Positions 853 to 26,904 of a stretch of 36,720 nucleotides of DNA are shown here, piece by piece. The translations under genes were made by a program, and so were the position numbers. How positions within the stretch are numbered: position 1 is the stretch's first letter; the number at the start of each line of letters is the position of its first letter. This DNA comes from a virus: IMG/VR virus record IMGVR_UViG_3300032285_000423, positions 1-36,720 of that record; one strand, 5' to 3'. A model generated the notes under the pieces. It was not told the DNA's origin and did not search any database. It was given only the letters and a program-made list of their open reading frames with translations.

Positions 853-2424
853 ATGTCGCTACAAATTAGACGCGGAACTGATGCTCAAAGACAACAAGTT
901 GTTTTTGATCTAGGTGAAATTGTATACACAACTGACACTAAAAAATTATACATCGGCGACGGTGTTGGTGGAGTTGGTACAGCCGGAGGAGTGAACGTCC
1001 TTGCTAGCTCAGCAGGTACAGGGCTATCTTGGAATTCAACTACACAGACGTTGAACTTTTCAGGAACACTAAGCGGTTATACAACGGATAATCTAGCACA
1101 AGGTACAGTTAACTTATATTATCTACCTAGCAGAGCTAAAGCGGATATAGCTACTATGTTTACTGCTACAGGTTCAAGTACAGTAACCGGTACAGTAACA
1201 GCCACTACAGCTACTACTATATCGTTTGTAGGCGCAGTGTCTACTGTTAACGGTACAGGAGTATTGACCTATACTAGCGGTACAGTGCCACAAGTCGGTA
1301 TGATCATAACAGGTACTGGTATTAATGCAAGCCCTGCTACGTACATTGTGTCAGGTACTAGTCCCACATTTATTTTAAATCAAGTACCTACAGCCGCAGG
1401 TACAGGCGTAGCGATACAGGGCGCAATATCACTAGTTTCAGTCGGTTCAGCCAGTGGTCTAGTGGCACTAGAACCATTTACAGTTACTGGTACAGGTGGC
1501 GGTGGTTTATCAGCCGCAACATACTATATTATTAATCCAACTGCTGGATCTAATCAAATTAGCTTGGCAACTTCGTTAGCCAATGCTCAAACTGGTGTTG
1601 CTATTACTAATTTGACTACTGCAACATTAGTAGCTACTACATTCACAGCAGGCGGACCTGACGCTAATATTACTTTCAGTTATAATCCAGTAACCGGTAC
1701 AATGTCTGTTAACTCTGCGGCTTCTGGAATTACAAGTGTTGTACAAGATACTGCTCCACGATTAGGCGGCGACTTAGTACTAAACAGCAAAAATATTACA
1801 GGTACAGGTAGTATTAATATTACCGGAGGTATAACTGCTAGTGGTGCTTTGGGAATTACAGGAACCACGACGTTGGGCACAGCCAATATTACTACTGGTA
1901 ATATAACAAATGTAAACACATCATTTATAAATGCACCGGATGCTGGTCAAGGTTTGCAAATTAGTGCCAAAGTAGGAAACAGTTTTGCACTAGGTTACTA
2001 CAACGGCACGGCCGCGTCACCGACTAATATCGTAGCCGGTGCTGGCGGTATGGTATTATCTATCAAAGGATATATTGGCAGTAACAACTATGCGTTTGCC
2101 GGCGGTGCAGGTGCGCAATTTGATGTCGGTGCTACTCTTACTGACGCTTATCCGAAGTCTTCAATTGGTCTGTTTGCAGGAGCAGGCGGATCAACTATTA
2201 ATCAAGCAACTTTAACCAGTGCAGGCGTATGGAATGCTCCTGCACTACAAACAACTGTATATTCAGTAGCTGGCACTGCATTACCTAGCGCAAGCACAGT
2301 AGGTGTAGGTGCTAGAGCATTTGTCTCAGATGCTACTGCAACAACCTACGCTTCGGCATATACAGGTAGCGGTTCAAACAAAGTTCCAGTTTACTCAGAC
2401 GGTACAGTTTGGCGCATTGGTTAA
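853..2424 (+). CDS. Tail-fibre-like virion protein with Mtd-type N-terminus
   Basis: A 523-residue protein. Residues 1-45 carry the signature RRGTDAQRQQVVFDLGEIVY then LYIGDG, typical of the N-terminal domain of the major tropism determinant and of many phage fibre proteins, where it attaches the fibre to the virion. The middle is low-complexity and rich in Thr, Gly, Ala, Ser and Asn, with beta-repeat-like runs such as TGSINITGGITASGALGITG. The end (VPVYSDGTVWRIG) is a common fibre terminus. The ATG has a GGAG Shine-Dalgarno (about 842-845). The coding DNA repeats GGTACAG about ten times. It probably binds the host surface. It immediately precedes the modification-enzyme island and is the obvious candidate substrate, though that is inference. 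Confidence 0.8.
   Translation: MSLQIRRGTDAQRQQVVFDLGEIVYTTDTKKLYIGDGVGGVGTAGGVNVLASSAGTGLSWNSTTQTLNFSGTLSGYTTDNLAQGTVNLYYLPSRAKADIATMFTATGSSTVTGTVTATTATTISFVGAVSTVNGTGVLTYTSGTVPQVGMIITGTGINASPATYIVSGTSPTFILNQVPTAAGTGVAIQGAISLVSVGSASGLVALEPFTVTGTGGGGLSAATYYIINPTAGSNQISLATSLANAQTGVAITNLTTATLVATTFTAGGPDANITFSYNPVTGTMSVNSAASGITSVVQDTAPRLGGDLVLNSKNITGTGSINITGGITASGALGITGTTTLGTANITTGNITNVNTSFINAPDAGQGLQISAKVGNSFALGYYNGTAASPTNIVAGAGGMVLSIKGYIGSNNYAFAGGAGAQFDVGATLTDAYPKSSIGLFAGAGGSTINQATLTSAGVWNAPALQTTVYSVAGTALPSASTVGVGARAFVSDATATTYASAYTGSGSNKVPVYSDGTVWRIG
853..2424 (+). repeat. Dispersed GGTACAG heptamers in the fibre gene
   Basis: GGTACAG occurs about ten times, mostly encoding Gly-Thr-Gly or Gly-Thr-Val. 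Examples follow the contexts GTT, GCA, CAA, ACC, AAC, AGC, ACT, ACA and GAC. The repeats are in frame and dispersed, not tandem, and fit a repetitive beta-structured shaft. They could also serve as short homologies for recombination between fibre genes. Confidence 0.6.
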
Positions 2425-4037: not shown

Positions 4038-4890
4038 ATTACATGAAAATGGTTGGACTGTTATACTTGAAAATTTCAATATCAAGGATGCTACTCAAGA
4101 CGATATAAATCAAATAGCTAGACTATTGGCAACTAATACGTGTGTTGTTATTAAGAATCAATCGCTAACTATCGAGGATGAAGTTAGGATTGCTAAGATG
4201 TTTAAAAATCCTCAACAGTTCCACTTGGATGTAGAAGGATCATTCGACGCCGAATGTTATCGAGGTGCAGAAGTTGATGGATCTGAAAAATTTGCACTAA
4301 GGGTAACCGGTGAAAAAAATGGACAGGGTCTTCCAGGTATAGCAGGTTGGGAAGACGAAATGGTATGGCACTGTAATGACCCTCATGACCCGTTAAAACG
4401 TTCGTTAATTTGGTTGTATGGAGTTCGTGGTACAGCAGGCTCTAGAACTACTTGGAACAACAACATATTGTCGTACGATGAATTAGATGAAGAGAAAAGA
4501 AAACCATTAGAAAATTTAAAACTTGTAATGGCAAACTGGGCTGAACATGATGCCGATATGCTAGCAGGTTATACTGGAGTAGCACTAGACGGATATACTC
4601 CCAATCTTGTTATGGAAAATATAGCAGGAAGAAAAGGTTTTTATTTTCCATTCTTACAAATCTCTGGTTTTGTAGGATTATCACAAGAAGAAAGTGCAAG
4701 TATAATCAGTTGGTTGTCGGAATACACTATACAAGAAAAGTATTGTTATCACCACGATTGGCAAGACGGTGATATTGTTATAGCAGAACAATGGCTTGGA
4801 ATACACAAGCGTTGGCCATTTAAAGAAATAGAACGTAGGCTCTTACATAGAATGGCGTTTGATTTTCCTGATCAGGATTATAGCATTTAA
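4024..4890 (+). CDS. TauD/TfdA-family paralogue with an HxN metal motif
   Basis: A 288-residue tandem paralogue of the upstream dioxygenase, sharing HENGWTV, CVVIKNQSLTIEDE, LYGVRGTAGSRT, HHDWQDGD and GIHKRWPF. Where the sister has WHSD, this protein reads WHCND (H116, C117, N118, D119), so the usual metal-ligand Asp aligns with Asn. The distal His and the LHR arginine are kept. Either the next Asp takes over, the chemistry is altered, or the copy is no longer a normal hydroxylase. The start overlaps the upstream gene by 14 bases. The stop lies in a TTAA (4887-4890) that also supplies the stop of the convergent gene on the other strand. Confidence 0.8.
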   Translation: MIQYKLHENGWTVILENFNIKDATQDDINQIARLLATNTCVVIKNQSLTIEDEVRIAKMFKNPQQFHLDVEGSFDAECYRGAEVDGSEKFALRVTGEKNGQGLPGIAGWEDEMVWHCNDPHDPLKRSLIWLYGVRGTAGSRTTWNNNILSYDELDEEKRKPLENLKLVMANWAEHDADMLAGYTGVALDGYTPNLVMENIAGRKGFYFPFLQISGFVGLSQEESASIISWLSEYTIQEKYCYHHDWQDGDIVIAEQWLGIHKRWPFKEIERRLLHRMAFDFPDQDYSI

Positions 4891-5531
4891 GGTAATTCGT
4901 CGATTACTTTGTATTCGCCAGTAATATTTTGTTTAACTGCGGCATCTTCGATTAATTTTTTCCAGCCATCTAGAGCATCATGTCTAGCTATAATCATATG
5001 CATACGATCTTCGTTACTTTCATTAATTACACTATGATGGTAATGTAAATTCATAGCATACACGCCGCCTGGCTCCATAATTATTTCCTCACCATCTCCC
5101 CAAATCCATTTACATCCAACTGGGTTATTGAGAGCAACATTTATATTTTCTATTAGTTTTATACTAGAGTCGCTATGTAGTGCTATTTTTCCGCCAGCAC
5201 GTAACAACATAAATCTAACCCTACCGTACTTATTACAAGGGAATTCTTCCTTGAGCCACTTAGTTGTTATAGGACATAAGTCGGCAATCTCAGTCCAGAC
5301 CATATCGTTGCTAGCATCTTTACCTTTGGCATATCCGTAATTACTGTAGTTTTCATGTTTGTCCCAACCGAGCCCGTGTATGGTCAAACTTTCCCAACCA
5401 TGCGAATCTTCATCTCCCCTGTGCGGGCTAAATTTATCAAGTAAAGCAAATGCTTCGGCACACATTTCTTTGTAAGGTAGTGCTATATCTAGTTTTAGAT
5501 AACGACCTTCTGAATGGAAATACTCTTTCAT
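4887..5531 (-). CDS. Aspartyl/asparaginyl beta-hydroxylase-like 2OG oxygenase
   Basis: A 214-residue protein with the AspH-type core: GKIALHSDSS (H119, D121), then WGDGEEI, PGGVYAMNLHYHHSV (distal His about 165) and NEDRMHMI (R176 for the co-substrate). This family hydroxylates Asp, Asn or related residues, often in proteins, using Fe(II) and 2-oxoglutarate. I chose the ATG at 5531; the in-frame TTG three bases earlier is not needed. The ATG overlaps the upstream stop by one base (TGATG), so it is the last gene of a coupled four-gene minus-strand block. The substrate is unknown. Confidence 0.75.
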   Translation of the reverse strand: MKEYFHSEGRYLKLDIALPYKEMCAEAFALLDKFSPHRGDEDSHGWESLTIHGLGWDKHENYSNYGYAKGKDASNDMVWTEIADLCPITTKWLKEEFPCNKYGRVRFMLLRAGGKIALHSDSSIKLIENINVALNNPVGCKWIWGDGEEIIMEPGGVYAMNLHYHHSVINESNEDRMHMIIARHDALDGWKKLIEDAAVKQNITGEYKVIDELP

Positions 5532-6976
5532 CAATTAACTCCTAACAGTCGTTCGCTATCATGTTTCCAATCAATCGCATGCCAGTTGGGAATTTTTAAA
5601 TCTGTAATGTCTGTATAGGCAAAGTTGCCGACCTTGTCTAGTCTTTGATCAATTTTAGTTTTCCAAAATCCATCAGCGGCCCTCGATGTTATTAACAGCG
5701 TTATATTCGGATCTTTGTTTTTAAGTTTTTGTAATAGATTATTCTCACAACTGATTCGATATTTTAAACTTGTAGAGGCAATGAAAGGAGAATGATTATA
5801 CAAGTCACTTAGATTTAATAGTGTTTTCTTGCCTGCTTCTAACCAATCAAAATTATAAGATGCTGTGTAGTCTATAAGAATATAATCATAGGTTAAATTT
5901 TTAACTTTACCCCATAAGGAATCCCAGTCGTCTATTGTTGTTAAAAACTTTTCCCATTGCTCTTTTATCTGATCCTTATATGTAGGAGGTATATGAGGCG
6001 GGTTATTAGGTAACATAGGTTTATGCGCCCAATAGAATTCGTCGTAGTCTTTTCCATCCCATTCCTCGACCATTTTTTTCATAAACATTAAACAGTTATA
6101 GTTGATATCTGTAAAAATGACTTTAGTATTATTTGAGAACCCTACTGTTTCTAAATTTTTAATCCAATTGAATCCGATTCCTACACTAGCGTACTGTTCA
6201 ACTGGACCTTCAAACGGTATATCTTCACGCAGTCTATCAGAGTTCCATCCTGCAAAGAAATTCATTCCAAAAAATTGATATTGTTTTATGTCTGCTAGGT
6301 GTCTAAGGAATACATGATCGTATTCGTAATATAGATATTTTTTACTATTGCGTATTTGTTGATTTAGTGTTAATAACTTTTTATCATGCTCTAGTCCAAC
6401 ATTTAAAATGTTCCATCCATGCAATTTAACAGAATAGGTTTTAAGCTCAGTGCCTTTGGTCATCCAGACAGGAATTTCCGGATCACCGTACAGGCATTCT
6501 TTACTTCTAATAGGGGCGATCTGCTGATACTCTACCCATTCCTCTTTTCCTACTACAGGATAATCTAATTCTTTATATTGATCGAGATTTACTATATAAA
6601 ATTGTTGATGTAATTCAAAACAAGCGTTCTTGTTGTAATAAGAATGGTCACCTCTATCAAGTATATGCCCTGCTACAAAGAATTCCTCTTGACATATATC
6701 TTCTACAGCATCAAACAATCTATCAGACAACCCTAAACTAGTACCGGCTGAGATGACAACAGCGTGAGTATAGCCTTGGTCGACTACAGTCTTTAATAAT
6801 GCATCTTCATCTTTGCTGATCACAATATCGTAATTATGCAGATCAAATCGATTTATTAAAAAGTCAGTTAGATTTACGCACACTTCTCTGGCATTGCCGC
6901 TTTGACAATTATCAACGATATCTAGTATACAAAAAACTATTGATCGTTTCTTTTCGACTCGAAACTGCATTACCAT
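5531..6976 (-). CDS. Conserved unknown protein, possible two-domain nucleotide-binding architecture
   Basis: A 481-residue protein, the longest unknown in the island. The N-terminal part (VFCILDIVD, then THAVVISAG, AGHILDRGD, ELHQQFYIVNL) reads like an alpha/beta fold of glycosyltransferase or Rossmann type. The C-terminal part (KVIFTDINYNCLMFMKKMVEEW, shown in full only as positions about 307-328, then YDYILIDY) resembles the SAM-binding region of class I methyltransferases. Both are inference; no catalytic signature is certain. ATG 6976 was chosen because GGAGAAAG lies 6-8 bases upstream. A longer frame starts only with TTG at 7024. It overlaps the gene upstream by seven bases. Confidence 0.6.
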   Translation of the reverse strand: MVMQFRVEKKRSIVFCILDIVDNCQSGNAREVCVNLTDFLINRFDLHNYDIVISKDEDALLKTVVDQGYTHAVVISAGTSLGLSDRLFDAVEDICQEEFFVAGHILDRGDHSYYNKNACFELHQQFYIVNLDQYKELDYPVVGKEEWVEYQQIAPIRSKECLYGDPEIPVWMTKGTELKTYSVKLHGWNILNVGLEHDKKLLTLNQQIRNSKKYLYYEYDHVFLRHLADIKQYQFFGMNFFAGWNSDRLREDIPFEGPVEQYASVGIGFNWIKNLETVGFSNNTKVIFTDINYNCLMFMKKMVEEWDGKDYDEFYWAHKPMLPNNPPHIPPTYKDQIKEQWEKFLTTIDDWDSLWGKVKNLTYDYILIDYTASYNFDWLEAGKKTLLNLSDLYNHSPFIASTSLKYRISCENNLLQKLKNKDPNITLLITSRAADGFWKTKIDQRLDKVGNFAYTDITDLKIPNWHAIDWKHDSERLLGVN

Positions 6977-7506
6977 TTTACTTTCTCCAATTGTTCTAAA
7001 AAGACGTCTACATTTAATTTCCAAAATGTCTGTAGATGTCCCCTGTATTCTTTTTCAAATTGTCGTGTTAGTACACCGGTCTTTTCTAAACTAGGACCCC
7101 ATACGGTATGTACTAGTCTTTGTGTACCGACTTCGCTAGGATGACTGGTTATGTATAGATCTTCCCACGGCGGTGTCCAAGCAATACAAGCCGGCATTAG
7201 ATACTGCGCTGTAACATGTTGGTGATTAATAATCTGATTTCTTGTACGTAGTGTATTAGTTGGTAGTAGGTGTGTTAACACGCAAGTTCTAGCACAAATA
7301 CGATAACCCTCTTCTATGCTGTGTGCCGCAACACTGCCTACTGCTTGATCATTGTGATATAAAATCCATACACACCAACTGTCTTCATTCTTAAAACAAT
7401 CAATCATAGCCTTTTGACTAGAATTGTTTATAAAACCTCGTTTATTGGCTTCTGCGTAAAAGTCAGTAAGATCTAAATCTTCAGTCCAGGGAACTATACT
7501 ATACAT
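6970..7506 (-). CDS. GNAT-like acyltransferase
   Basis: A 178-residue protein. After the N-terminal helix ANKRGFINNSSQ (20-31), the core WCVWILYHNDQAVGSVAAHS (45-63) looks like strands 2-4 of a GNAT fold. The later part (TAQYLMPACIAW, then LYITSHPSEVG) completes an alpha/beta protein of about the right size. The acetyl-CoA loop is not textbook, so the enzyme class is a moderate-confidence call. The ANK.GFINN segment also occurs at the C-terminus of the oxygenase at 15655-16320. It overlaps the upstream gene by 13 bases and the downstream gene by 7, so it is translationally coupled. Confidence 0.55.
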   Translation of the reverse strand: MYSIVPWTEDLDLTDFYAEANKRGFINNSSQKAMIDCFKNEDSWCVWILYHNDQAVGSVAAHSIEEGYRICARTCVLTHLLPTNTLRTRNQIINHQHVTAQYLMPACIAWTPPWEDLYITSHPSEVGTQRLVHTVWGPSLEKTGVLTRQFEKEYRGHLQTFWKLNVDVFLEQLEKVKW

Positions 7507-8174
7507 TTAACACGCTCAATAAATTCTGCAGGATAATTAGTACTAAAACTATTCCAACATAATTGATCCATTACAGCCCAAGGTTGTGGTTTATCCCATT
7601 CGATCCCTAATGTGTCTAAATGCTTTCGCATCTCATTTTGTCTTGTTGTATAGATATGGCTTTCTACTTCTGCAATACTAATATTAGGTTCGTCCTTATG
7701 GTAGGTAAAGAAATAGTTAATACTCTTTAGCTTTCCGTCTACAATAAAATAGCTACTAGGATGCATACTATACTTGTGCCATCCACGTGCCTTATGTGCT
7801 TGAATAATTTCTATCATTTGATCTTGCCAGTCGGGCAGTACGCTGTCGTAGTTAGCTTGATCGCAACCTGCCTGTTCCCAAAAATCTGGACCATCAATGG
7901 ACAAGTATATTTTACGCTCTGGAACATTAACTTCTATAATCTTTGGAACCATATGCGGATTTCGCCAAGCCATGTTGCTCAAGTAGTGCAATTCTCTTTG
8001 GAATTTTTCTGCCATCAACTTTGGATCAACAACTTGATTTTTTCCAGCGTGGTATTCCGTGTCATTGTGATACCATTGGCAGAATACTTTTTTATCCTCG
8101 GATATAAGACTAGTATAAATCAAGTTATTTCTGCATTGTCCCATTCCGGGTACGTTGTTATAATAATATTTCAT
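7494..8174 (-). CDS. Degenerate protein-kinase/aminoglycoside-kinase-like protein
   Basis: A 226-residue protein, paralogous to the gene at 13425-14120. Both have a YYY start followed by NLIYT or NLLYT, a ..RKIY strand, DWQDQM or NWKEQM, and a C-lobe segment. That segment (residues 138-154 here: HPSSYFIVDGKLKSINY) parallels the catalytic loop and metal loop of kinases (H.D....N then K..D) with key acidic residues replaced. This suggests a kinase-like fold with lost or altered catalysis; it is inference from pattern. The ATG at 8174 is preferred over a TTG at 8213. It is the first gene of the minus block, divergent from the radical SAM gene at 8206 with only 31 nt between. Confidence 0.5.
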   Translation of the reverse strand: MKYYYNNVPGMGQCRNNLIYTSLISEDKKVFCQWYHNDTEYHAGKNQVVDPKLMAEKFQRELHYLSNMAWRNPHMVPKIIEVNVPERKIYLSIDGPDFWEQAGCDQANYDSVLPDWQDQMIEIIQAHKARGWHKYSMHPSSYFIVDGKLKSINYFFTYHKDEPNISIAEVESHIYTTRQNEMRKHLDTLGIEWDKPQPWAVMDQLCWNSFSTNYPAEFIERVKCIV

Positions 8175-8189
8175 GGTATAGTAATTATC

Positions 8190-8197
8190 AATAAATA
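8190..8197 (+). promoter_or_regulatory. TATAAATA-like late promoter abutting the ATG at 8206
   Basis: AATAAATA ends eight bases before the ATG, with no Shine-Dalgarno in between. The 31-bp AT-rich gap also has to hold the promoter of the divergent block. On the minus strand the best match is a weaker GATAATTA about seven bases before ATG 8174. Confidence 0.45.
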
Positions 8198-8205
8198 TTT
8201 GCCAC

Positions 8206-9243
8206 ATGAACAATTCAGAAACTATCTCCTTATGCGAGGAATGCTATCGACATATACCAGCAACCAGATTTGAAAAAGATGGTCAAATGATGTTGGGGAA
8301 AACTTGTCCTAAACATGGATATCAAGAAGCAATACTAGATATTAACATAGACTTTTACAAAAGTCAACAATATCAAAGACGTAAACCAAGTTCGTACTGG
8401 TTGGATATTACTAATCGCTGTAATTTAGATTGTCCACATTGCTACCAAATGCCCGATAACAACAGTAAAGATCCTAGTATAGATTATCTGTTATCAGAAG
8501 TTATGAGTTGGCCGGACAATGGATTACCTGTTAGTCTAGTTGGTGCCGAACCTACAGTGCGTAGAGACTTGCCTGATTTAGTTTTGGCTATACAAGCCTT
8601 GCCCACTAAACCTAGGAATGTTATAATAGTTACCAATGGCGTATATTTGGCCAAGTGGGACTATGTAGCACGATTTAAAGGAATATCGAACTTAAAATGG
8701 ACCTTTGGATTAAATCATCCTGACTACAACGGCGGACAGATTCGCACTAAACAAATGGAAGGGTTAGAGAACTGTATTAAGCTAGGATTAGATGTAAAGA
8801 CACTAACTTACACGTTAGCCAACTTAGAACAGTTATCTGATGTAATGTATGAAGTACAAAAGTTCGGCATCAATACTAGGATACAACTAGGAGTTGAAAT
8901 CGGTCGTGTTCCAGAAGGCGACTTTAAAGAACTGTACTTATCAGAGCTAGTTGAAGTTGCTGAACAGTTTTGCTTAGATAACGGATGGACATGGGAACCA
9001 GATTACCAAGGAGGTAATCGTACACATTTTGCTGTCCGCATAAATGGAATAGAACATAAGTTTATTAAATGGTGTGATGTGAGGACTATAGACTTAGAAG
9101 AAGTACAAAGTGAATCTTGGGCTAGTATTGTTCCAGGTAAACCTATGAGTCCGTTGTTACACCAAGTTATATTGAGAGATCAAGCAGTCAATCGAGGACA
9201 AATGTTGTTAGATACAGTACCTGAAAAATATAGACATGAATAA
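8206..9243 (+). CDS. Radical SAM protein with N-terminal Cys3His zinc-ribbon-like domain
   Basis: A 345-residue protein. Residues 10-37 hold CEEC...PA...CPKHG (C10, C13, C34, H37), a small zinc-site-like module. The radical SAM cluster motif is C72-NLD-C76-PH-C79, followed by a glycine motif that reads GAEPT instead of the usual GGEP. No C-terminal Cys set for auxiliary clusters is visible. The N-terminal pattern recalls archaeal radical SAM enzymes of the MJ0619/tetraether-synthase group; that link is from memory and needs a search. The next gene (overlap of eight bases) is a full-length paralogue, so the two may act as a pair. It opens the plus block 8206-12960. Confidence 0.85.
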   Translation: MNNSETISLCEECYRHIPATRFEKDGQMMLGKTCPKHGYQEAILDINIDFYKSQQYQRRKPSSYWLDITNRCNLDCPHCYQMPDNNSKDPSIDYLLSEVMSWPDNGLPVSLVGAEPTVRRDLPDLVLAIQALPTKPRNVIIVTNGVYLAKWDYVARFKGISNLKWTFGLNHPDYNGGQIRTKQMEGLENCIKLGLDVKTLTYTLANLEQLSDVMYEVQKFGINTRIQLGVEIGRVPEGDFKELYLSELVEVAEQFCLDNGWTWEPDYQGGNRTHFAVRINGIEHKFIKWCDVRTIDLEEVQSESWASIVPGKPMSPLLHQVILRDQAVNRGQMLLDTVPEKYRHE

Positions 9244-10300
9244 AATACACGATACAACGTCCGTATGCGAGCATTGCTACCGACACGTTCCAGCTGTTCT
9301 TTTTGAAAGAGACAGTTCTATATGGCTATCAAAGAAATGTAAATGGCATGGTGCTAGCGAACATCTAGTAGAACCTAATGCGGACTTTTATATTAACTAC
9401 AAATACGATCGTCCTACTAACAAAACATATTGTTTGGACATTACTAATCGTTGTAATTTAAATTGTCCCCATTGCTATCAAATTCCAGATAACATGAGCA
9501 AGGATCCGAGTATAGAAACAATACTAGAAACTATTAGGGCATGGGATGATGACGGTTATGCTGTTGCTCTAATGGGTGCTGAACCAACTACTAGGAAAGA
9601 TCTGCCTGAACTATGTAGAGCTATACAAGCACTACCGGGTAAATCCCGAGCAATTATGATACTAACAAACGGGGTGTATCTTTCTGATCTCGAATACTGC
9701 CAACAGTTTTCCGATATACCTAATTTGTTTTGGACTATAGGATTAAATCATCCAGACTATCAAGGACACACTGTTAGAAAGAAACAGATGGAAGGCATAG
9801 ACAACTGTATGAAGTTAGGCATGCCAATTAAGAATGTTAGTTATACACTTGAAACTATTGGACAACTAGAATACTGTCTAGATGAAATACAAGAGTTTGG
9901 CAAGACATTGAGTCCACACAATTATAGAGTCCGTGTAGGAACAGATATAGGTCGTCATCCGGGCGAAGAAAAAGTATACCTATCACAGCTAGTAGATATG
10001 GTAATAGATGTATGTAAACGTAGAGGATGGGAATACAAATACGAACCATCATACGGAATTAGGGTACACTACCCATTGCGAATAAATGGAATATTAGTTA
10101 AAATAATACAATGGCCTGATGTACGTACTATAGACCTTGAAGAAGATCAAACAGAATCGTGGGCCGATATGTTACCTGGTAAGCCGGTAAGTCCATTAGT
10201 TCATCAAGTCATACTCCGTGATGGTGCTGTTAATAAAAACTTACCATTATATGACACAGTGCCTGAAAAATATCAAAGGAAATATGATGCACGGGATTAA
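9236..10300 (+). CDS. Radical SAM protein, tandem paralogue with N-terminal Cys3His module
   Basis: A 354-residue protein colinear with the upstream gene. The N-terminal module is C11, C14, C35, H38 (CEHC...PA...CKWHG). The cluster motif is CNLNCPHC (C73, C77, C80), followed by MGAEPTTRKDLPEL, again with GAEP in place of GGEP. The shared C-terminus (DVRTIDLEE, ESWA, PGKP.SPL.HQVILRD, DTVPEKY) is strongly conserved, so both copies are probably active. The 3' end overlaps the next gene by 17 bases. The enzymes should cleave S-adenosylmethionine to a 5'-deoxyadenosyl radical; the substrate is unknown. Confidence 0.85.
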   Translation: MNKIHDTTSVCEHCYRHVPAVLFERDSSIWLSKKCKWHGASEHLVEPNADFYINYKYDRPTNKTYCLDITNRCNLNCPHCYQIPDNMSKDPSIETILETIRAWDDDGYAVALMGAEPTTRKDLPELCRAIQALPGKSRAIMILTNGVYLSDLEYCQQFSDIPNLFWTIGLNHPDYQGHTVRKKQMEGIDNCMKLGMPIKNVSYTLETIGQLEYCLDEIQEFGKTLSPHNYRVRVGTDIGRHPGEEKVYLSQLVDMVIDVCKRRGWEYKYEPSYGIRVHYPLRINGILVKIIQWPDVRTIDLEEDQTESWADMLPGKPVSPLVHQVILRDGAVNKNLPLYDTVPEKYQRKYDARD

Positions 10301-11087
10301 TGGTAAACCTTATTTTGATATGGCTCCTTACCTGGATATGGTGGGATTCGATAACTTACAGCCCGAGATACTATCAGGCTTTGCTCTAGCACGTGAGTAT
10401 GCTAAAGAAGGTACATGGATGAAACCAGGTTTTACATTTGATGACATGAGCTACAAAATTAGTTGGAAGCCTATCTATCAGTCCATGGATGAATTTATGG
10501 CGTTGCCTAAGGATGATCCAATATATCAAGCTGGCATAAAATTAATGCCAACTGATTTTAAAAACTTCCAACAACGTAATGTGTTTACTCGTTTCCTAAA
10601 AATGTCAATGGGTTCTTATGATCCATACATTTACTATTACTTGTGGGAAGAAGGATCATGGGATGATAGAACTGCACCTCGTAAACTTACACCAGAAGCT
10701 GAATACTTTCCGGAAACTGTTAAATGGGTTGAAAGTTTAGTAGGTACAGTATTTGAAGACATCGGCCGTGTTATATTCTTCCACTGTGAAGCAGATGGCA
10801 TACCATTTGAACATAGAGACTTAGATGCCAAGAATGGGGTTAACGTAGTCAAACCTCATCGTAACGAGTTTATACACATACGTCCTAATACAAAGAAAGC
10901 ATTTTACCTGTGGGATCCCGAAACTAAAGATAAAACATACTTGAATACTCGTGCCGCATGGTGGAACGATGTAGACTGGCATGGCGGTGAACGTATCATG
11001 GAACAAAGCTACGGACTACGCATAGATGGCAAGTTTACAGAACAGTTCCGTGCTGATCTTGGTATTGATCACTTGGAGACTTATTAA
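10284..11087 (+). CDS. Fe(II)/2OG oxygenase-like protein, paralogue of the gene at 2470
   Basis: About 267 residues. The metal motif is H177-R-D179 in FEHRDLD, the distal histidine is H233 in DWHGG, and R246 (YGLRIDG) is the co-substrate arginine. NEFIHIR, LWDPETK and YLNTRAAWWN match the paralogue at 2470. The frame is open further upstream, but AAAGGA at 10275-10280 fixes the start at ATG 10284 or, with better spacing, ATG 10287. Directly downstream, with a one-base overlap, follow two more oxygenases, making three in a row after two radical SAM genes. The substrate is unknown. Confidence 0.75.
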   Translation: MMHGINGKPYFDMAPYLDMVGFDNLQPEILSGFALAREYAKEGTWMKPGFTFDDMSYKISWKPIYQSMDEFMALPKDDPIYQAGIKLMPTDFKNFQQRNVFTRFLKMSMGSYDPYIYYYLWEEGSWDDRTAPRKLTPEAEYFPETVKWVESLVGTVFEDIGRVIFFHCEADGIPFEHRDLDAKNGVNVVKPHRNEFIHIRPNTKKAFYLWDPETKDKTYLNTRAAWWNDVDWHGGERIMEQSYGLRIDGKFTEQFRADLGIDHLETY

Positions 11088-11611
11088 TGAAGTATATAGG
11101 AAACTATAAATCTTGGATGGAAGAGCAAAAGATAATGGAGCACTTGACCGCAGTTCAAGGTGAAAAGACTCCAGTGTGGCAACCTGAAAAGTGGACCGGT
11201 CATCCGATACTAGATAAATTTCAGGAGCTATGTCGTCCGGGTTATTCAGATAACAAACACTTTTTTCATATGTTAGGACCAACTGCTCCAGAAATGAAAA
11301 ATTTTAATTTTGATTTACCATCTCTGCCAGAATCACGTAGCCAAGTAAACTGGTGGTTTGTGAAATTATACCCGGGTGAGTTTCAAGCAATGCATATAGA
11401 TCCGCATTTAACAGATGTTAAGGATCCAATACGCTATACAATGTTTTTACAGGATTGGGAACCTGGCCATATATTTGTATGGGATAATCAATACATAGCC
11501 GATTACAAAGCAGGTGACATGTATGAATGGAGTGACCCTATGACCGTGCATGGACCTGCAAATATAGGATATAACACTCGATACACACTTCAAATAACTT
11601 TACACGAGTAA
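11087..11611 (+). CDS. Small Fe(II)/2OG oxygenase, first of a tandem pair
   Basis: A 174-residue jelly-roll protein. The metal motif is HID in FQAMHIDPH, then RYTMFLQDWEPGHIFVWDN, a DY.AGDMYEW strand, the distal His in MTVHGPANI, and the arginine in YNTRYTLQIT. This is the compact single-domain layout of prolyl- and asparaginyl-hydroxylase-like enzymes. The next gene is a same-length, gap-free copy one base further on. TAATG coupling links it to the oxygenase upstream. It is probably catalytically competent; the substrate is not known. Confidence 0.78.
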   Translation: MKYIGNYKSWMEEQKIMEHLTAVQGEKTPVWQPEKWTGHPILDKFQELCRPGYSDNKHFFHMLGPTAPEMKNFNFDLPSLPESRSQVNWWFVKLYPGEFQAMHIDPHLTDVKDPIRYTMFLQDWEPGHIFVWDNQYIADYKAGDMYEWSDPMTVHGPANIGYNTRYTLQITLHE

Positions 11612-11612
11612 C

Positions 11613-12137
11613 ATGAAGTACATAGGTAACTACAAATCCTGGATAGAAGATCAAAAGATAATGGAACATTTATCTGTATGTCAAGGAGAAGTAAGCCCTG
11701 TATGGCCGGGCGACTTTTATTCAGGACATCCTGCATTAGAAAAAATTAAAGAATCAGGTAGGACTGGATATTCTGACAATCGATTTGTTTTTCATCAGTT
11801 AGGCCCGCACTCTCCAGAGATGGCTAATTTTAAATTTGAACTACCAACTGTTCCAGAATCACGTAGCCAAGTAGACTGGTGGTTTGTAAAACTGTATCCA
11901 GGTGAGTTTCAAATTATGCATGTAGACCCGCATACTGTAGAAGTTAAAAATCTTGTAAGATATACAATCTTTTTACAAGACTGGGAACCCGGACATATCT
12001 TTGTGTGGGACAACAAATATGTAGCTGACTACAAAGCAGGTGACATGTATGAATGGAGCGATCCTATGACCGTGCATGCTCCTGCAAATATCGGATATAA
12101 CACAAGATACACATTCCAAATAACTTTTCACGATTAA
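11613..12137 (+). CDS. Small Fe(II)/2OG oxygenase, second of a tandem pair
   Basis: 174 residues, the same length as the upstream gene and aligned without gaps. Both begin MKYIGNYKSW and share ESRSQV.WWFVKLYPGEFQ, LQDWEPGHIFVWDN and the metal and co-substrate residues (HVD, MTVHAPANI, NTRYTFQIT). Differences cluster in residues 20-75, the part most likely to touch the substrate, which would fit divergence in specificity. It lies between its sister and an SGNH protein, with one-base gaps on each side. Confidence 0.78.
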   Translation: MKYIGNYKSWIEDQKIMEHLSVCQGEVSPVWPGDFYSGHPALEKIKESGRTGYSDNRFVFHQLGPHSPEMANFKFELPTVPESRSQVDWWFVKLYPGEFQIMHVDPHTVEVKNLVRYTIFLQDWEPGHIFVWDNKYVADYKAGDMYEWSDPMTVHAPANIGYNTRYTFQITFHD

Positions 12138-12960: not shown

Positions 12961-13432
12961 ACATATACTTTTTAGCAAGACCACCATTAATACCGTTATG
13001 CCATTCTCGATGACTAGCCCATTTAACTATAGTGCCTTGAGGTTTATTGTAAAAATACTCTTTACCTAATATAAACAAGTGTCCTACACTAGGTTCACTT
13101 ATAAACACAGAATAGCGTTTTAGCAAACCATAAGTTAGATACTCCTTTTCGTTATCGTCGATATCGTAATGATACCCGGTCATATACCCGGGCTCTACGC
13201 AACTGATCCAACTGCGCAACGGAGTAATACTAACCTCTTTAGCAACTTGTGTTTCGACATCTTTAGTATTGTAATAGTTTGTCCATTTAACACTAGCTGT
13301 ATTAAAATTATTGTCTGTCCACAGTTTTAGCATATCTGCGTACTCTGGATTTTTCATATTCCATTGTGCAGGATCGACAGTAATATCTTTGCCGTCTTTG
13401 AGATTAGCTATTACTGTATTCCAATTAATCAT
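12941..13432 (-). CDS. Small Fe(II)/2OG oxygenase-like protein
   Basis: About 163 residues from ATG 13432 (the longer frame from 13459 uses TTG). The jelly-roll features are GYHYDID (HxD), YSVFISEPSVGHLFILGKEYF, GTIVKWASHREWHNG (distal His) and a final KKYMFNL. It aligns in layout with the tandem pair at 11087-12137, but the usual co-substrate arginine seems to be replaced by lysine. The start overlaps the upstream gene by eight bases. The 3' end overlaps the SGNH gene by 20 bases. It is the last gene of the minus block 12941-16320. Confidence 0.65.
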   Translation of the reverse strand: MINWNTVIANLKDGKDITVDPAQWNMKNPEYADMLKLWTDNNFNTASVKWTNYYNTKDVETQVAKEVSITPLRSWISCVEPGYMTGYHYDIDDNEKEYLTYGLLKRYSVFISEPSVGHLFILGKEYFYNKPQGTIVKWASHREWHNGINGGLAKKYMFNLLGY

Positions 13433-14120
13433 TATAGACTTCTTCAAATATTTCAGCAAATACAGTATTGCCCCATGAACGTTCTTTTAAGTGTTTTGTA
13501 ATTGTAATTTCAAAAAACTTCTTGAAGTCAATAAACCCTTTTTCATCTGTTGATTGATCAAAACGATAAGCACCATCTTTACCGATAATACCTTCTATTA
13601 TTTTTCTTTCTATGAATCTTTCTTCATATGGAATAACAGCGTAGTTGTCTATAGTTTTTAACTGTCCGTCTTTTGCTATAAAGAAACAATTTGGGTACAA
13701 AGACACCTTCCAGAAATTGTTTGCTTTAGTTGCGATAAAGAAATCCTTCATTTGTTCTTTCCAGTTAGGAACTTCTGTATCTAAATCTCTACCAGGAGTA
13801 AACAACACTTGCGATAGTGTTTCTTTATTCCACTCCATGTAGATTTTTCTATTCTCAAAATCTACATCATATAGAGCAGGTGTAGTTTTAAGATGAGATA
13901 ATTGTTGTAAAAACTTAACATCTCTTTTAAAGAACCAATCTACTAAATCCGCCGGCACTAGGATATCCTCATTCGGTCTATACGCTGGATCGATACAGTA
14001 GTGCGCACACATTACTGTTTGTTCTGGATTAACTCTAGGAGTATACAACAAGTTTGAAGGATATGGAGTTCCGGTAGGATTTAATTTATAGTAGTAATCC
14101 CATGTGCTTGTATCTGTCAT
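13425..14120 (-). CDS. Degenerate kinase-like protein, paralogue of the gene at 7494
   Basis: About 231 residues from ATG 14120, which overlaps the upstream TGA as ATGA; the longer frame from 14132 starts with TTG. It shares with the 7494 gene the WDYYY start, NLLYTPRVN, LQQLSHL, the RKIY strand, VPNWKEQM and a C-lobe loop (SLYPNCFFIAKDGQLKTIDN). That loop resembles a kinase catalytic and metal loop in which the catalytic Asp is missing but a D remains in TIDN. Kinase-like fold is inference. It sits between a radical SAM gene and an oxygenase, as its paralogue sits with a GNAT-like protein and an oxygenase. Confidence 0.5.
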   Translation of the reverse strand: MTDTSTWDYYYKLNPTGTPYPSNLLYTPRVNPEQTVMCAHYCIDPAYRPNEDILVPADLVDWFFKRDVKFLQQLSHLKTTPALYDVDFENRKIYMEWNKETLSQVLFTPGRDLDTEVPNWKEQMKDFFIATKANNFWKVSLYPNCFFIAKDGQLKTIDNYAVIPYEERFIERKIIEGIIGKDGAYRFDQSTDEKGFIDFKKFFEITITKHLKERSWGNTVFAEIFEEVYND

Positions 14121-15658
14121 TGTGTGTTCCAATTTAATTTTTTACTGATATAAGATTGAACTTGATCTTTAAACTTTTGATCAGCTGTATCTATATCTGA
14201 TAGTTTGTAATTATATATTGCTTCGTAGGAGTTTGTTTCGTAAAAAGCGAATAGCCTATCAGATAAGAATGGGTTACATCCACGTAGTCCTTTAAATCCC
14301 ATGTCACTATAAAAATCTTGCACTAATGCTTCTGCTTGATACCAATCCATAGTATCGTGACTCCAAATGACAACATCATTTCTAGTACTGCCTACACCAC
14401 CGCCTCGTGGAGTAGTAGACTTGAATACAACATTACCTCTACTATCTTTAGTAACTTCATACCCTGGATTTTGTCTAGCTTCTAGTTTAACTAAACCATT
14501 GCTCACAAGTTCTTTAGTAAATCGACTTTGATTAGTAAGTGTTTCGTCATAGTCTGGTACTTCCAATATATGTGCAGAAGCACTTTGTCTAGTCCATTTG
14601 GTGTTAAGCCATTCTAGTGAGGTATTCCAAGACTCTACACTTTCACCGGGTATGCCACATATCATTTGTATATTAGCTCTGTACCGATTAGGAGCATGAA
14701 TATCAGTGTATTCTTGAAACTCTAACAGGCCTTGTTGTAACTTATCAGGATCCATACCCTTGCGTACAAGTTTACCTGCGGCGTGATTGAATGTTTCAAT
14801 ACCCATCGAGTGGCCAAGGAATCCTAGTCTAATATAAGTATCCCAATGCTCCTTGTGTTTAACAACTAAGTCGCCTCGAGCAAATCCGCATATCCAAGGA
14901 TTGTATCCTAACTCGTCTACTGCGTCTGCGTACTTCTGTAGTTTCTCAGGACGATCGTTAAATGTTTCATCCATTACACGCCAGTTGACTATCCCCCACT
15001 TTTCATAGCCTAGTTGTAATTGTTTCTTAAATTCTTCCTTGCTTACACTAACGTCTTGTGCTTGCCCTATGATAGGAAAGTTACAATAACTGCAACTAAA
15101 CATACAACCACGTGCTGTTTCAATTTGCGGGCATTCCCAAGGCATCATAAAGTCACGAGCTTCATAATCTACTAGGTAGCTATCTAATGGCGCACTTGGG
15201 TAGTGATGTAGCCCGCGAATAACTTTCTTATTGGGGATTGTAATATCTGTTTTTAGTCTTTCGCCTAGTGTTCCAATGAGATGCTGGCATAGTGCTAGTA
15301 CAGCATTTTCTCCATAACTATCTATCCAGTAGTCTACATGTTCAGCAGGAGTAGTTAGCGCATTGTTGCCGCCTACTACTATAGCAACGTTGGGATACTC
15401 TGCTTTGAGCCAAGCGGTAAATTCGTTAAGGTATGGGCTCCAAGGATTTAAAAACGCTGTGCCAAAACAAAACATAACGGTCTTATCTGTTGTTCTGCTA
15501 CGAACAAACTCTTGCAGTTCTTCTAATTGCCAAAATGCTGTGAAGTCTACAACTTCAGCATCCCAATCATGCATTCGCAGGTATGTGGCCACTCGATGGG
15601 TCCATAGGATCCTTTCCCAGCGTTTACCCGTTAGGCTAAAGAATAGCGCATGGTTCAT
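14117..15658 (-). CDS. Radical SAM protein with B12-binding-like N-terminal domain
   Basis: A 513-residue protein. Residues 1-130 form an alpha/beta domain (EVVDFTAFW, VMFCFGTAF, VAIVVGGNNAL) like the cobalamin-binding part of B12-radical SAM enzymes. I see no DxHxxG cobalamin motif, so it may not hold B12 in the usual way. The radical SAM motif is C185-MFS-C189-SY-C192 in ARGCMFSCSYC. WRVMDETFND and CGFARGDL are typical of this group, as is MICGIPGES. The start overlaps the upstream stop as ATGA. The C-terminal 100 residues are unassigned. Fe-S cluster and SAM use are near certain; the reaction is unknown. Confidence 0.85.
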   Translation of the reverse strand: MNHALFFSLTGKRWERILWTHRVATYLRMHDWDAEVVDFTAFWQLEELQEFVRSRTTDKTVMFCFGTAFLNPWSPYLNEFTAWLKAEYPNVAIVVGGNNALTTPAEHVDYWIDSYGENAVLALCQHLIGTLGERLKTDITIPNKKVIRGLHHYPSAPLDSYLVDYEARDFMMPWECPQIETARGCMFSCSYCNFPIIGQAQDVSVSKEEFKKQLQLGYEKWGIVNWRVMDETFNDRPEKLQKYADAVDELGYNPWICGFARGDLVVKHKEHWDTYIRLGFLGHSMGIETFNHAAGKLVRKGMDPDKLQQGLLEFQEYTDIHAPNRYRANIQMICGIPGESVESWNTSLEWLNTKWTRQSASAHILEVPDYDETLTNQSRFTKELVSNGLVKLEARQNPGYEVTKDSRGNVVFKSTTPRGGGVGSTRNDVVIWSHDTMDWYQAEALVQDFYSDMGFKGLRGCNPFLSDRLFAFYETNSYEAIYNYKLSDIDTADQKFKDQVQSYISKKLNWNTQ

Positions 15659-17204: not shown

Positions 17205-17826
17205 GCTAGTAACATTTGGCGACAGCTTTACCTACGGACACGGTCTAGAAGATTGTTGGATTGCAGACAAAGAATATCCCGGTCCAACTCCTAGCAAGTT
17301 TGCATGGCCGCAACACTTGGGAAATATGCTTGGACTAGAAGTAGTTAATAAATCAATGTGCGGTTATAGTAATATACAGATACTAAGGGAAATTATAAGT
17401 TTTGATTTAGAACCAACAGATATGGTTATAGTAGGCTGGACATACAGTTTAAGAGATTGTATTTTTAGTAAAAATATATTTGGAAAAGAATCGGCAATGA
17501 GACTTAGTGTTTGGCACAAAGATACTAAGTTTATTAAAAAATATTTTGATGTGCATAATAATCATGATATGGCTGTTAGGATGGGATTATATATGCATCA
17601 TGCCGAGTCATATCTAAAAACAAAAGTAGTCAAGCAACATCATTTTTGTGCTTACCACGGATGGTATGAAGTAATGCCACATTTTACAGAACCACTTGAA
17701 AATTTTATTTCTAGTGAAATTGTACAGCACAAGTTAGATATAGCATTAGACAACAGCCATCCTGGACCGATAGCACATCACCAAGCGGCCGAACGATTAT
17801 ATAAGATACTAAATGAACCAAAGTAA
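17197..17826 (+). CDS. SGNH/GDSL-family hydrolase
   Basis: A 209-residue protein with FGDSFTYGHG at residues 7-16 (nucleophilic Ser in GDS), NKSMCGYSN (block II Gly) and DNSHPGP near the C-terminus (Asp/His of the triad). It is a complete single-domain SGNH hydrolase, probably an esterase or acyl hydrolase. It shares the GxSxxxGxG pattern with the GCS-type protein at 12139. It lies between the PLP protein and a radical SAM gene, overlapping each by 8-14 bases, so it is made with them. Confidence 0.78.
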   Translation: MPRLVTFGDSFTYGHGLEDCWIADKEYPGPTPSKFAWPQHLGNMLGLEVVNKSMCGYSNIQILREIISFDLEPTDMVIVGWTYSLRDCIFSKNIFGKESAMRLSVWHKDTKFIKKYFDVHNNHDMAVRMGLYMHHAESYLKTKVVKQHHFCAYHGWYEVMPHFTEPLENFISSEIVQHKLDIALDNSHPGPIAHHQAAERLYKILNEPK

Positions 17827-19072
17827 AACATTTTGTCTGCATCCATTTACAGGACTAGCTACTAGAGAAGACGGCGCTATATGTGCTTGTTGTCGTAGCC
17901 ACCCTGTTGGTTTTATACAACAGCAGTCCCTAGAAGAAATTTGGAACAACGACACTATGAAACGAATACGTAAGTCAGTGCTTACTAACATACGTCCTCC
18001 GGAGTGTGAGCCGTGTTTTAGCTTAGAGGACCAAGGTGTCGAATCCTTGCGTAAACGTCATATAAGCGGTGCAATCCCCGAAGCTAGGGTAAACTTGTAC
18101 CCTAATGCCTTAGACGCTTTAAACGACGATTACACTATGCCGTTTGAAATTCCTACTATGGAACTAAAATTAAACAATTTGTGTAACCTCAAGTGCCGTA
18201 TGTGCCACCCAATGGACTCAACAAGTTGGAATGATTGGAGTGCAGTAAAAAAGTATTACAAAGAAGAAAACAACATCATGTACGCTATCGTTGAAGAACA
18301 TGATTTAGAAAATAAGCCACATCTTGATAAGTTTCAAGATAGCCCAGAATGGTGGGCTAGTTTAGAAAAATTACTTCCGTACTTTCGACGTGTAGAATTT
18401 GCAGGCGGAGAGCCTTTGATGGATCCGCAACACTATCGCATATTAGATATGCTTGCTCCTTACGGACACCAGATTGAAATTAAGTATGCTACTAATCTAA
18501 GTATGCTAGGTAAGAGTAATCGCACTGTGTGGCAGTATTGGCCTAAGTTTAAGAGTGTTGCTGTGAACGTAAGTATAGACGGTATCAGTAATAGTTATGA
18601 ATACATACGCGGTAATGCATCTTGGTCAGAGCTTGTTAATAACATACGTCAAATACAGTCAATATCTAATATTAGTCGTATTGTAGGTGCCTGTACTGTA
18701 CAGGTTAGTAATGTACTAATCCTAGACAAGATGTGTGAATTCTTTTTAGATAAATTAGGTATTGTATTCCATACCCATCGCGTGGCATATCCTAAAGTAT
18801 TATCAGCACAGGTATTACCTAAGCCATTAAAGGCCCTGGCTATTATGCGTCTAGAGGCTCTTAAGGATCGTGTTCCTAATTTTAAACTAGTTAAAGAACA
18901 TCCAGAATTATTAAAGTATACACTAGGTCAAATACAAGATAATATAAACTACCTTAATTCTGTGGATCAAAGTGAGCTATGGGAAGACTGCGTAGGCTTC
19001 AATCGTGCATTAGACGCTACTCGTAATCAGAGTTTTACAGATGTTACTCCAGAGTTCAAAGACTATGTTTGA
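17813..19072 (+). CDS. Radical SAM protein with N-terminal twitch (Fe-S) domain
   Basis: A 419-residue protein. Residues 1-70 carry a Cys set (C8, C24, C27, C65, C68; FCLHPF...AICACC...ECEPC) with IWNNDTMKRIRKS between. This is the N-terminal twitch layout that binds an auxiliary cluster. The radical SAM motif is C124-NLK-C128-RM-C131, then FAGGEPL. The paralogue at 21769 has the same order. Twitch/SPASM radical SAM enzymes typically act on peptides, proteins or carrier-bound sugars. It overlaps the genes on both sides. Confidence 0.86.
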   Translation: MNQSKTFCLHPFTGLATREDGAICACCRSHPVGFIQQQSLEEIWNNDTMKRIRKSVLTNIRPPECEPCFSLEDQGVESLRKRHISGAIPEARVNLYPNALDALNDDYTMPFEIPTMELKLNNLCNLKCRMCHPMDSTSWNDWSAVKKYYKEENNIMYAIVEEHDLENKPHLDKFQDSPEWWASLEKLLPYFRRVEFAGGEPLMDPQHYRILDMLAPYGHQIEIKYATNLSMLGKSNRTVWQYWPKFKSVAVNVSIDGISNSYEYIRGNASWSELVNNIRQIQSISNISRIVGACTVQVSNVLILDKMCEFFLDKLGIVFHTHRVAYPKVLSAQVLPKPLKALAIMRLEALKDRVPNFKLVKEHPELLKYTLGQIQDNINYLNSVDQSELWEDCVGFNRALDATRNQSFTDVTPEFKDYV

Positions 19073-19871
19073 ACTAACATTAACTAACGGTGTTGAGGAT
19101 TTAGTATTAACTTTCAAGTTAAGAAAAACTAATATTGCCAACAAGTGGTTTACTGAATTGTCTAAAGGGTATGCACTATACGAAACTAATAGATTTAGCA
19201 ATTGGGGTCCGCATGATTTTGTTAATCAGCTTAATCAACAGATTGATATTATAAATGCCTATCAACCTTTAATAGATAAGTGTGTTACCGAATCGTCTAC
19301 ACAACAAGAATTAAATTACCTACACAAGTTCTTTGAAGACTTACGAGGCGAAGTTGATAACAGTACTGAATGGTATCAACAAGCACCCAACTATGTACAA
19401 GATGCTGTGTGTAAATTTAACATACTAATACATCAACTCGAGTCATCAATTAGGACAGGATATAAGCATCCTACAGTAGTAGTAACATTTAAGGATAATC
19501 TTAAACTAGCATTATCAGAAAATGACATGCGAAAGTTTACATACAAGTGGAAACAAGGGACTGTGTATATAAACTATTGTCAAGTGGGCAAGACAGTGCT
19601 AGATGTGTTTAAGGATAAAGACACGCTATCAGAGGCAGTACGGCCACAAACACATTACAGTGCAGACTTTATGGTCAAGTTTGGACCAAGCACTAATTGG
19701 TTAGCGTATGTTGCTCGTTCTATCATAATTAAGTTGTGGCTATTAAAAAGAAACTTTAAATTTAAAAATTTAAATATAGGAATGATCCCAGTTGCAGATT
19801 TAGTTACACCGGTAGATAAATCTACACTATTAAAATTTAACGAGGTTAAAAAAGTAACATGTTTAAAGTAG
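19065..19871 (+). CDS. Unknown protein encoded between two radical SAM genes
   Basis: About 268 residues, starting at ATG 19065 (MFELTLTNG), which overlaps the upstream stop by eight bases. An in-frame ATG at 19041 would add eight residues. The protein is mostly helical in the middle (FVNQLNQQIDIINAYQ, ELNYLHKFFEDLRGEVDN) with a beta-rich C-terminal third (THPTVVV-like and KWKQGTVYINYCQVG). I recognise no catalytic motif. Its position, overlapping a radical SAM gene on each side, suggests a partner or substrate-presenting protein, but that is only context. It is one of two large unknowns in the island. Confidence 0.6.
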   Translation: MFELTLTNGVEDLVLTFKLRKTNIANKWFTELSKGYALYETNRFSNWGPHDFVNQLNQQIDIINAYQPLIDKCVTESSTQQELNYLHKFFEDLRGEVDNSTEWYQQAPNYVQDAVCKFNILIHQLESSIRTGYKHPTVVVTFKDNLKLALSENDMRKFTYKWKQGTVYINYCQVGKTVLDVFKDKDTLSEAVRPQTHYSADFMVKFGPSTNWLAYVARSIIIKLWLLKRNFKFKNLNIGMIPVADLVTPVDKSTLLKFNEVKKVTCLK

Positions 19872-26808: not shown

Positions 26809-26904
26809 GTAGACGTGAGTGGAACATGGTATACCTCCAGCTTGCTGGGATAGGGCCTTGCCCTTAGGGTGGCTTTGTAGGTTCGAATCCTACCGTCTAC
26901 ACCA
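26809..26904 (+). tRNA. tRNA-like gene, long and with unreadable anticodon arm
   Basis: 96 nt including an encoded CCA. The acceptor stem is perfect (GTAGACG with CGTCTAC, 7 bp). The T arm is perfect (GTAGG, loop TTCGAAT, CCTAC). A D-arm-like stretch contains the conserved GG (26828-26829). The middle, 26835-26876, is about 20 nt longer than in a normal tRNA and does not give a clean 5-bp stem with a 7-nt loop. It holds a hairpin CCAGC-TT-GCTGG (837-848) and a GCC..CCC-TTA-GGG.GGC hairpin (855-873). A long variable arm with a poorly paired anticodon arm (possible GCT, Ser) is one reading; an insertion or a non-decoding tRNA mimic is another. Confidence 0.6.

Follow-up and report, generated by a model that had tools for sequence, protein, structure and literature searches.

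A 36,720-base IMG/VR virus record, the whole of which is referred to here as the window, encodes two adjacent radical SAM proteins that, as judged from their sequences, belong to a virus-specific clade in which a GAEP-type radical SAM core that lacks auxiliary [Fe4S4] clusters carries a rubredoxin-type mononuclear metal domain at its N-terminus. Both genes lie on the + strand and their ORFs overlap by 8 bp. Protein A (8206..9243, 345 aa) consists of the rubredoxin-type module, the radical SAM core and a short, cysteine-poor C-terminal part; protein B (9236..10300, 354 aa) is its paralogue, with 54% identity to A across residues 5-344.

In both proteins a Cys3His module (CX2C-X20-CX2H) lies N-terminal to the CxxxCxxC motif. 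The module's ligands are C10, C13, C34 and H37 in A (C10xxC13...C34xxH37G; 8233..8316, + strand) and C11, C14, C35 and H38 in B (9266..9349, + strand). The radical SAM cluster motif follows at C72, C76 and C79 in A (8419..8442) and at C73, C77 and C80 in B (9452..9475), and GAE replaces GGE at residues 113-115 of A (8542..8550) and 114-116 of B (9575..9583), again all on the + strand. All 74 full-length sequences in an alignment of both window proteins with 72 of 76 relatives, four short or partial relatives having been dropped, retain C10, C13, C34, H37, C72, C76, C79 and G113-A114-E115 without exception. The initial annotation's description of a radical SAM pair with a Cys3His module and a GAE motif at 8206-9243 and 9236-10300 is thus borne out, as is its remark that GAEP is unusual: among the matches listed, only six of 71 cellular radical SAM relatives carry it, five of these six being one group. 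Since the Pfam scores exceed the cut-offs both for Zn_ribbon_HMPTM (PF23545; A 52.4 and B 48.9 bits, cut-off 27; residues 4-43 or 4-45) and for Radical_SAM (PF04055; A 48.7 and B 54 bits, cut-off 29.5), neither assignment is attributable to chance. A Pfam search found no SPASM match in A or B, and the 74 sequences likewise have no invariant C-terminal cysteines, indicating that the pair does not belong with the SPASM/Twitch peptide maturases. Values of dN/dS were 0.027-0.065 for A and 0.030-0.126 for B (finite dS in five of seven comparisons each), consistent with purifying selection, and because these values are low both look like working genes.

The N-terminal pattern had been likened to that of the MJ0619/tetraether synthase type, and the comparison holds at the level of the metal site. 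In the structure of GDGT-MAS (MJ0619), a rubredoxin-type iron is held by C9X2C12X20C33X2H36 (PMC9433317); the phage site, C10X2C13X20C34X2H37, has equal ligands and spacing. An AlphaFold2 model of A built from a 20-row alignment (pLDDT 87, pTM 0.86) gave 7tol as the top Foldseek match (E 2e-15; best other protein E 1.5e-7), and VIA-align superimposed A on MJ0619 over 327 of 345 residues with Z 29.6, 3.2 Å and 24% identity, the next-ranked protein being MoaA at Z 17.6. A sequence profile search returned 7tol at E 1e-28, in agreement with the structure match. The radical SAM core and overall fold are therefore common to A and the MJ0619/GDGT-MAS/Tes proteins (PDB 7TOL, 7TOM; NF045702). The initial annotation had proposed just such a profile and structure comparison, in which MJ0619/GDGT-MAS came out as the best match, covering almost the whole protein and well ahead of all others; the outcome that it named as contrary, matches to an unrelated family with the zinc module absent, did not occur.

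Beyond this common ground, the phage enzymes differ from MJ0619 in size and cluster content. MJ0619 has about 500 residues, a GGE motif and two more [Fe4S4] clusters, of which the C-terminal one bears a substrate-sulfur (C-S) intermediate of C-C coupling (PMC9433317), whereas the phage enzymes have 345-354 residues, GAE and the ligands of neither cluster. For the N-terminal auxiliary [Fe4S4] cluster of Tes/GDGT-MAS (C73, C77, C80, His), CPxxCGxC-type cysteines were found in 0 of 20 phage sequences; for the C-terminal one, no invariant cysteine lies C-terminal to C79 in the 74 sequences. One phage member contains six cysteines in total, all of them metal ligands. Scores against the Tes equivalog (NF045702) were 72.4 and 77.7 bits, below the cut-off of 450, and those against the TrsS equivalog (NF045646) were 74.9 and 75.3 bits, below the cut-off of 490. 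Proteins of Pfam PF23545 (Zn_ribbon_HMPTM; HMPTM/Tes/TrsS type) share the N-terminal module with the phage enzymes above the curated cut-off, but the ten cellular HMPTM-type proteins read for comparison (from 11 loci, one without a suitable ORF) are all 467-605 aa long, carry GGEP and have a second CPxxCGxC-type motif ahead of the radical SAM motif, which the phage proteins lack. Of 33 invariant positions after the cluster motif in the 74 sequences, 20 are polar or aromatic-polar, 10 are G, P or A, and 3 are aliphatic. In the AlphaFold2 model, N170-H171, Y202-T203 and W289 sit near strand ends, and this placement, together with the polar invariants, suggests a polar pocket.

A core tree of 48 rows (unrooted; MJ0619 was not a row and a truncated protein from locus L048 was left out) places 21 phage rows in one group (support 100/99) that is joined at 99/97 by a compact bacterial GAEP group of five rows (100/98). 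Ten HMPTM rows form a group (100/98) separate from both, so the phage core falls outside the Tes/HMPTM clade; the other 12 rows are further radical SAM proteins. The phage enzymes thus carry GAEP and share a joined core clade with the compact bacterial enzymes, lying beside the bacterial group and not nested inside it. The bacterial enzymes, from Roseibium, Labrenzia, a Rhodospirillales MAG, an Acidobacteria MAG, a gammaproteobacterial MAG and one further genome, have GAEP and a compact C-terminal part as in phage, but they lack the rubredoxin module, are encoded in cellular genomes and show 18-24% identity to the phage rows. In one genome scan, the Cys3His module was present in 0 of 71 ORFs listed, from 80 retained of 223 relatives, and no cellular source of the full architecture was found there. 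Genomes with a close GAEP relative numbered 2 of 385 in the class of the Roseibium record, 1 of 369 in the class of L048 and 1 of 199 in the phylum of L040, with the genome used to define each sample counted in.

In three of the six loci of these bacterial sisters (L039, L041 and L042), genes for a GNAT protein, an Asp/Asn hydroxylase and the GAEP radical SAM enzyme follow one another in near-overlapping order, and downstream of the triad is a protein of 2620-2778 aa with 27-48 RTX-type repeats. The N-termini of these three giant RTX proteins differ. In a fourth locus (L198), a GNAT gene precedes the GAEP radical SAM gene, and the contig starts with a piece similar to the giant RTX proteins. 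An RTX neighbour is absent in the other two loci, L040 and L048. In the latter, from the gammaproteobacterial MAG (L048:1-4045), the genes after the GAEP radical SAM gene encode a haem-oxygenase-like iron protein and what looks like an MBOAT/SGNH pair for acylation. The bacterial triad resembles the phage island described below by composition and not by order. An Asp/Asn hydroxylase, which adjoins the bacterial enzyme in the three triad loci, is also found in the window island; the comparison of phage and bacterial hydroxylases (hhalign probability 59%, E 1e-4) is suggestive only. The acyltransferase-like family of the phage island, considered as a homologue of the bacterial GNAT, showed no measurable relation to it.

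To assess how the pair is organized in other viruses, we used 75 viral loci drawn from the best 80 of 185 viral matches, a set that includes near-copies, so that its counts are not independent. Radical SAM copies number one in 33 loci, two in 37, three in 4 and four in 1, and are in tandem in 31. The tandem pair reported in the initial annotation is therefore real in the window but is not a fixed unit. Thirty-three sequences are A-type, 33 are B-type and eight are unassigned, with fixed A/B differences at nine columns. Because several of these differences adjoin invariant positions (175, 201 and 288 next to invariant 174, 202 and 289; 227 near 225), A and B appear to reflect duplication with specialisation. 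In some phages a third, divergent paralogue of 375-390 aa, with 32-38% identity to A and B, lies between the A-type and B-type copies (L024:12448-13575, L025:12428-13585, L026:12403-13530 and L029:12374-13546).

Around the pair extends an island that is conserved among T4-like phages. The pair's most constant partner, present in 74 of 75 loci and in 58 of them the next gene 3' of the radical SAM run, is a putative 2OG-Fe(II) oxygenase (10284..11087, + strand; referred to as the 10218 family), recognised by eye from an HxD...H...R pattern whose H177, D179, H233 and R246 are invariant. Two putative 2OG-type oxygenases, also assigned by eye, follow in tandem on the + strand (11087..11611, its family in 71 of 75 loci, and 11613..12137); neither 10284..11087 nor 11087..11611 gave a Pfam match. 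On the - strand, directly upstream of the radical SAM run in 48 loci, is a kinase-fold protein (7494..8213; 68 of 75 loci), and a second, distant relative is encoded at 13425..14132 (- strand; 71 of 75 loci). A joint profile of the two matches protein kinases at E 1e-6, yet on inspection of the alignment both seem to lack the usual catalytic kinase residues, and they are probably pseudokinases. These two families are nearly as constant across the 75 loci as the radical SAM gene. An acyltransferase-like protein (6970..7506, - strand; 72 of 75 loci) shows weak similarity to FeeM, an acyl-ACP enzyme, with matches in five of nine family members (best E 0.027) and a score of 13.3 bits for the window member against a cut-off of 27. 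Next to it, at 5531..7024 (- strand; 57 of 75 loci), a domain of GT-A glycosyltransferase fold is joined to a methyltransferase-like domain. In the AF2 model of this protein (pLDDT 87), residues 9-233 resemble viral glycosyltransferases and LH3 in structure (Z 10-11); the Foldseek rows for it, NNMT-like ones among them, include none at E 0.001 or below. The top structural rows for the GT-A domain include the PBCV-1 capsid glycosyltransferase as well as LH3. PDB sequence searches with the profiles of the 10218, 5531 and 6970 families returned nothing firm.

Further oxidative and radical chemistry is encoded on either side. The left part of the island contains two TauD-family dioxygenases (3195-4037 and 4024-4890, + strand; PF02668, 80.5 and 77.7 bits) and an Asp/Asn beta-hydroxylase family protein (4887..5534, - strand; PF05118, 45.1 bits, cut-off 22.6). 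To the right are a radical SAM protein with weak B12-binding similarity at its N-terminus (14117..15658, - strand), two or three related copies of which occur in some other loci, and seven further radical SAM ORFs beginning at 17813, 19859, 20735, 21769, 23180, 24847 and 25815 (17813..26774), all above the PF04055 cut-off and some with SPASM. By eye, the ORF at 24258 is methyltransferase-like and that at 16359 aminotransferase-like, the latter with no Pfam match. Two more families, 12941 and 15655, occur in 68 and 63 of the 75 loci. The window contains 10 radical SAM ORFs above the Pfam cut-off, and 21 related records have 8-15 radical SAM matches each. Across the window island (2424-26774), genes overlap or nearly abut, and since gaps are at most 45 bp no gene for a small precursor peptide is evident between them. 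A tRNA-Ser(GCU) lies at the island edge (26809-26904), and at the right end of the window (36430-36720) the apparent start of a ClpP-like protease gene is seen by eye beside a MazG-like gene. Accessory genes in related loci (271 unlabelled ORFs of at least 150 aa, 52 cluster representatives, 25 families displayed of 49 matched) include oxygenases, methyltransferases (FkbM among them), AMP-binding enzymes, a tryptophan halogenase, a sulfotransferase, a hexapeptide transferase, QueC-like domains and a tRNA-methyltransferase-like family. The largest unlabelled accessory family, L183:15120-15839 with a further 51 ORFs related to it, is spread over 44 loci; the match of its representative to QueC is confined to the C-terminal part of that protein and spans 55 residues.

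At the left of the island, a tail-fibre-like protein with an Mtd_N N-terminus (853..2424, + strand; PF18454, 39.2 bits) is a candidate substrate. The fibre was sought in the 44 of the 75 loci that lie on long contigs, most of these records being fragments. An Mtd_N fibre is present in 34 of the 44 and absent as a match in 10; in 33 of the 34 it is 2.2-11.8 kb from the radical SAM gene, the exception being L163, where it lies 43.5 kb away. For single long records this closeness is not significant, with a rough chance of 0.08-0.55 each. Among related records, two long ones (200.8 and 186.2 kb) have a gene for T4-type gp23; it was not seen in four others searched, which may be fragments.

The fibre-adjacent island resembles two known arrangements in T4-like phages. 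The host recognition cluster of pelagimyophages is described as hypervariable, with fibres and with radical SAM cassettes by which clusters differ from one another (PMC7029224); it is unlike the phage island in being rich in LPS glycosyltransferases, and the freshwater group in that description is without radical SAM genes. Campylobacter T4-like phages are described as having interchangeable radical SAM modules (PMC2853527). In two of two records of cultured Campylobacter phages, a radical SAM group with an aminotransferase and an amidinotransferase lies directly ahead of the tail genes. CP220, CPt10, WX1 and CC_R7 have many radical SAM genes beside tail genes, as in the phage island, but the matching WX1 protein has GGEP and no rubredoxin module, and the Campylobacter group includes the amidinotransferase. 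A tblastn search with A matched 9 of 50,697 cultured phage records, all of them distant and none covering 80%; the 10218, 17813 and 5531 proteins had no match in cultured phage records. BFVD gave generic radical SAM matches only, and no description of this radical SAM family was found in the open-access literature searched.

Taken together, these observations lead us to favour, tentatively and with somewhat less than even confidence, a model in which the pair and neighbouring island enzymes modify amino-acid side chains in a protein of the phage surface. The [Fe4S4] cluster would cleave SAM to give a 5'-deoxyadenosyl radical, which would abstract hydrogen from a polar substrate; a role in structure or in electron delivery may fall to the rubredoxin-type site, and the A and B copies would be specialised. 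The foremost candidate for the surface protein is the adjacent tail fibre; its side chains might be changed jointly by the pair, the neighbouring oxygenases, the transferases and the other radical SAM proteins, which would alter host recognition. Consistent with protein tailoring are the invariant metal sites and GAE motif, the MJ0619 fold match and the clade shared with bacterial GAEP enzymes; the conserved oxygenase, acyltransferase-like and kinase-fold genes among so many radical SAM matches; the nearby Mtd_N fibre in all but one of the records that carry it; the giant RTX proteins beside bacterial sisters; the polar invariants; the A/B differences next to invariant positions; the lack of an obvious precursor-peptide gene in the window island; and, in other phages, the Campylobacter radical SAM group before tail genes and the cassettes described for pelagimyophages. 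However, fibre proximity is guilt by association in a T4-like region that collects unrelated cargo, and ten records have no Mtd_N match while in L163 the fibre is distant. Moreover, the phage acyltransferase-like family has no measurable relation to the bacterial GNAT, two sister loci lack the RTX neighbour, and the GT-A-fold protein and accessory sulfotransferase would fit glycan work too. We hold with still more reserve, as a possibility well short of even, the broader proposal that the island of these T4-like aquatic phages equips the receptor-binding fibre with non-canonical amino-acid side chains, which would make host range a matter of chemistry as well as sequence, and that the bacterial sister enzymes act on giant RTX exoproteins.

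Some of the same evidence could point to surface glycans. The island might make a sugar, or alter one, on the lipopolysaccharide of the host or on virion glycans and so change receptors or keep other phages out, with the pair acting on a sugar or its nucleotide carrier. The resemblance to the pelagimyophage host recognition cluster, which is reported to hold glycosyltransferases (PMC7029224), the GT-A fold at 5531, whose best structural matches include viral capsid glycosyltransferases, and the sulfotransferase, hexapeptide transferase and FkbM methyltransferase domains of the accessory genes are all compatible with this. We nevertheless regard it as rather unlikely: glycosyltransferase-like genes are few compared with radical SAM and oxygenase genes, none occurs among the 25 families displayed (of 49 matched, 52 accessory representatives), and sugar genes were not recognised by eye beside the bacterial sisters. 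Less likely again is that the island is a biosynthetic cluster for a small molecule or ribosomal peptide acting in the infected cell. The accessory AMP-binding enzymes, tryptophan halogenase, QueC-like proteins and methyltransferases would suit such a cluster, as would the aminotransferase-like ORF at 16359 and the aminotransferase of the Campylobacter phage island; but in the window island the genes overlap so closely that a precursor peptide would have no room between them, the modular, patchy gene content is unlike that of a fixed pathway, and a transporter was not recognised.

The initial annotation had raised lipid or alkyl-chain chemistry, the joining of unactivated carbons as in tetraether synthase. 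MJ0619 being the best match in both fold and sequence, the weak FeeM similarity of the 6970 protein and the possible acyl-transfer genes seen by eye beside two bacterial sisters speak for it. Because the auxiliary sites are missing, the invariant residues are mostly polar and the core groups with bacterial GAEP enzymes, lipid coupling does not follow from the likeness to MJ0619; with the Tes and TrsS cut-offs missed, the core outside the HMPTM/Tes-type clade and the FeeM match under its cut-off, we consider it very improbable. The alternative offered alongside it, simply a shared zinc module, comes nearer, except that the metal in the MJ0619 site is iron. DNA or RNA hypermodification, to which we give the least credence of all, would draw on the QueC-like domains and the tRNA-methyltransferase-like family among the accessory genes; yet only 55 residues of the representative of the largest accessory family match QueC, and a nucleotide kinase or thymidylate-synthase-like partner was not seen in the window island.

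The rubredoxin-type module is known from archaeal lipid synthases. Its occurrence also on a compact viral radical SAM core that has no auxiliary clusters means that module and lipid chemistry are separable. If the island does tailor the fibre, this would explain why some T4-like phages carry about 20 kb of radical and oxygenase chemistry beside it, and the island would be a source of enzymes able to modify C-H bonds in large proteins. In bacteria, the operons of hydroxylase, acetyltransferase and radical SAM genes beside RTX proteins make the tailoring idea testable in culture.
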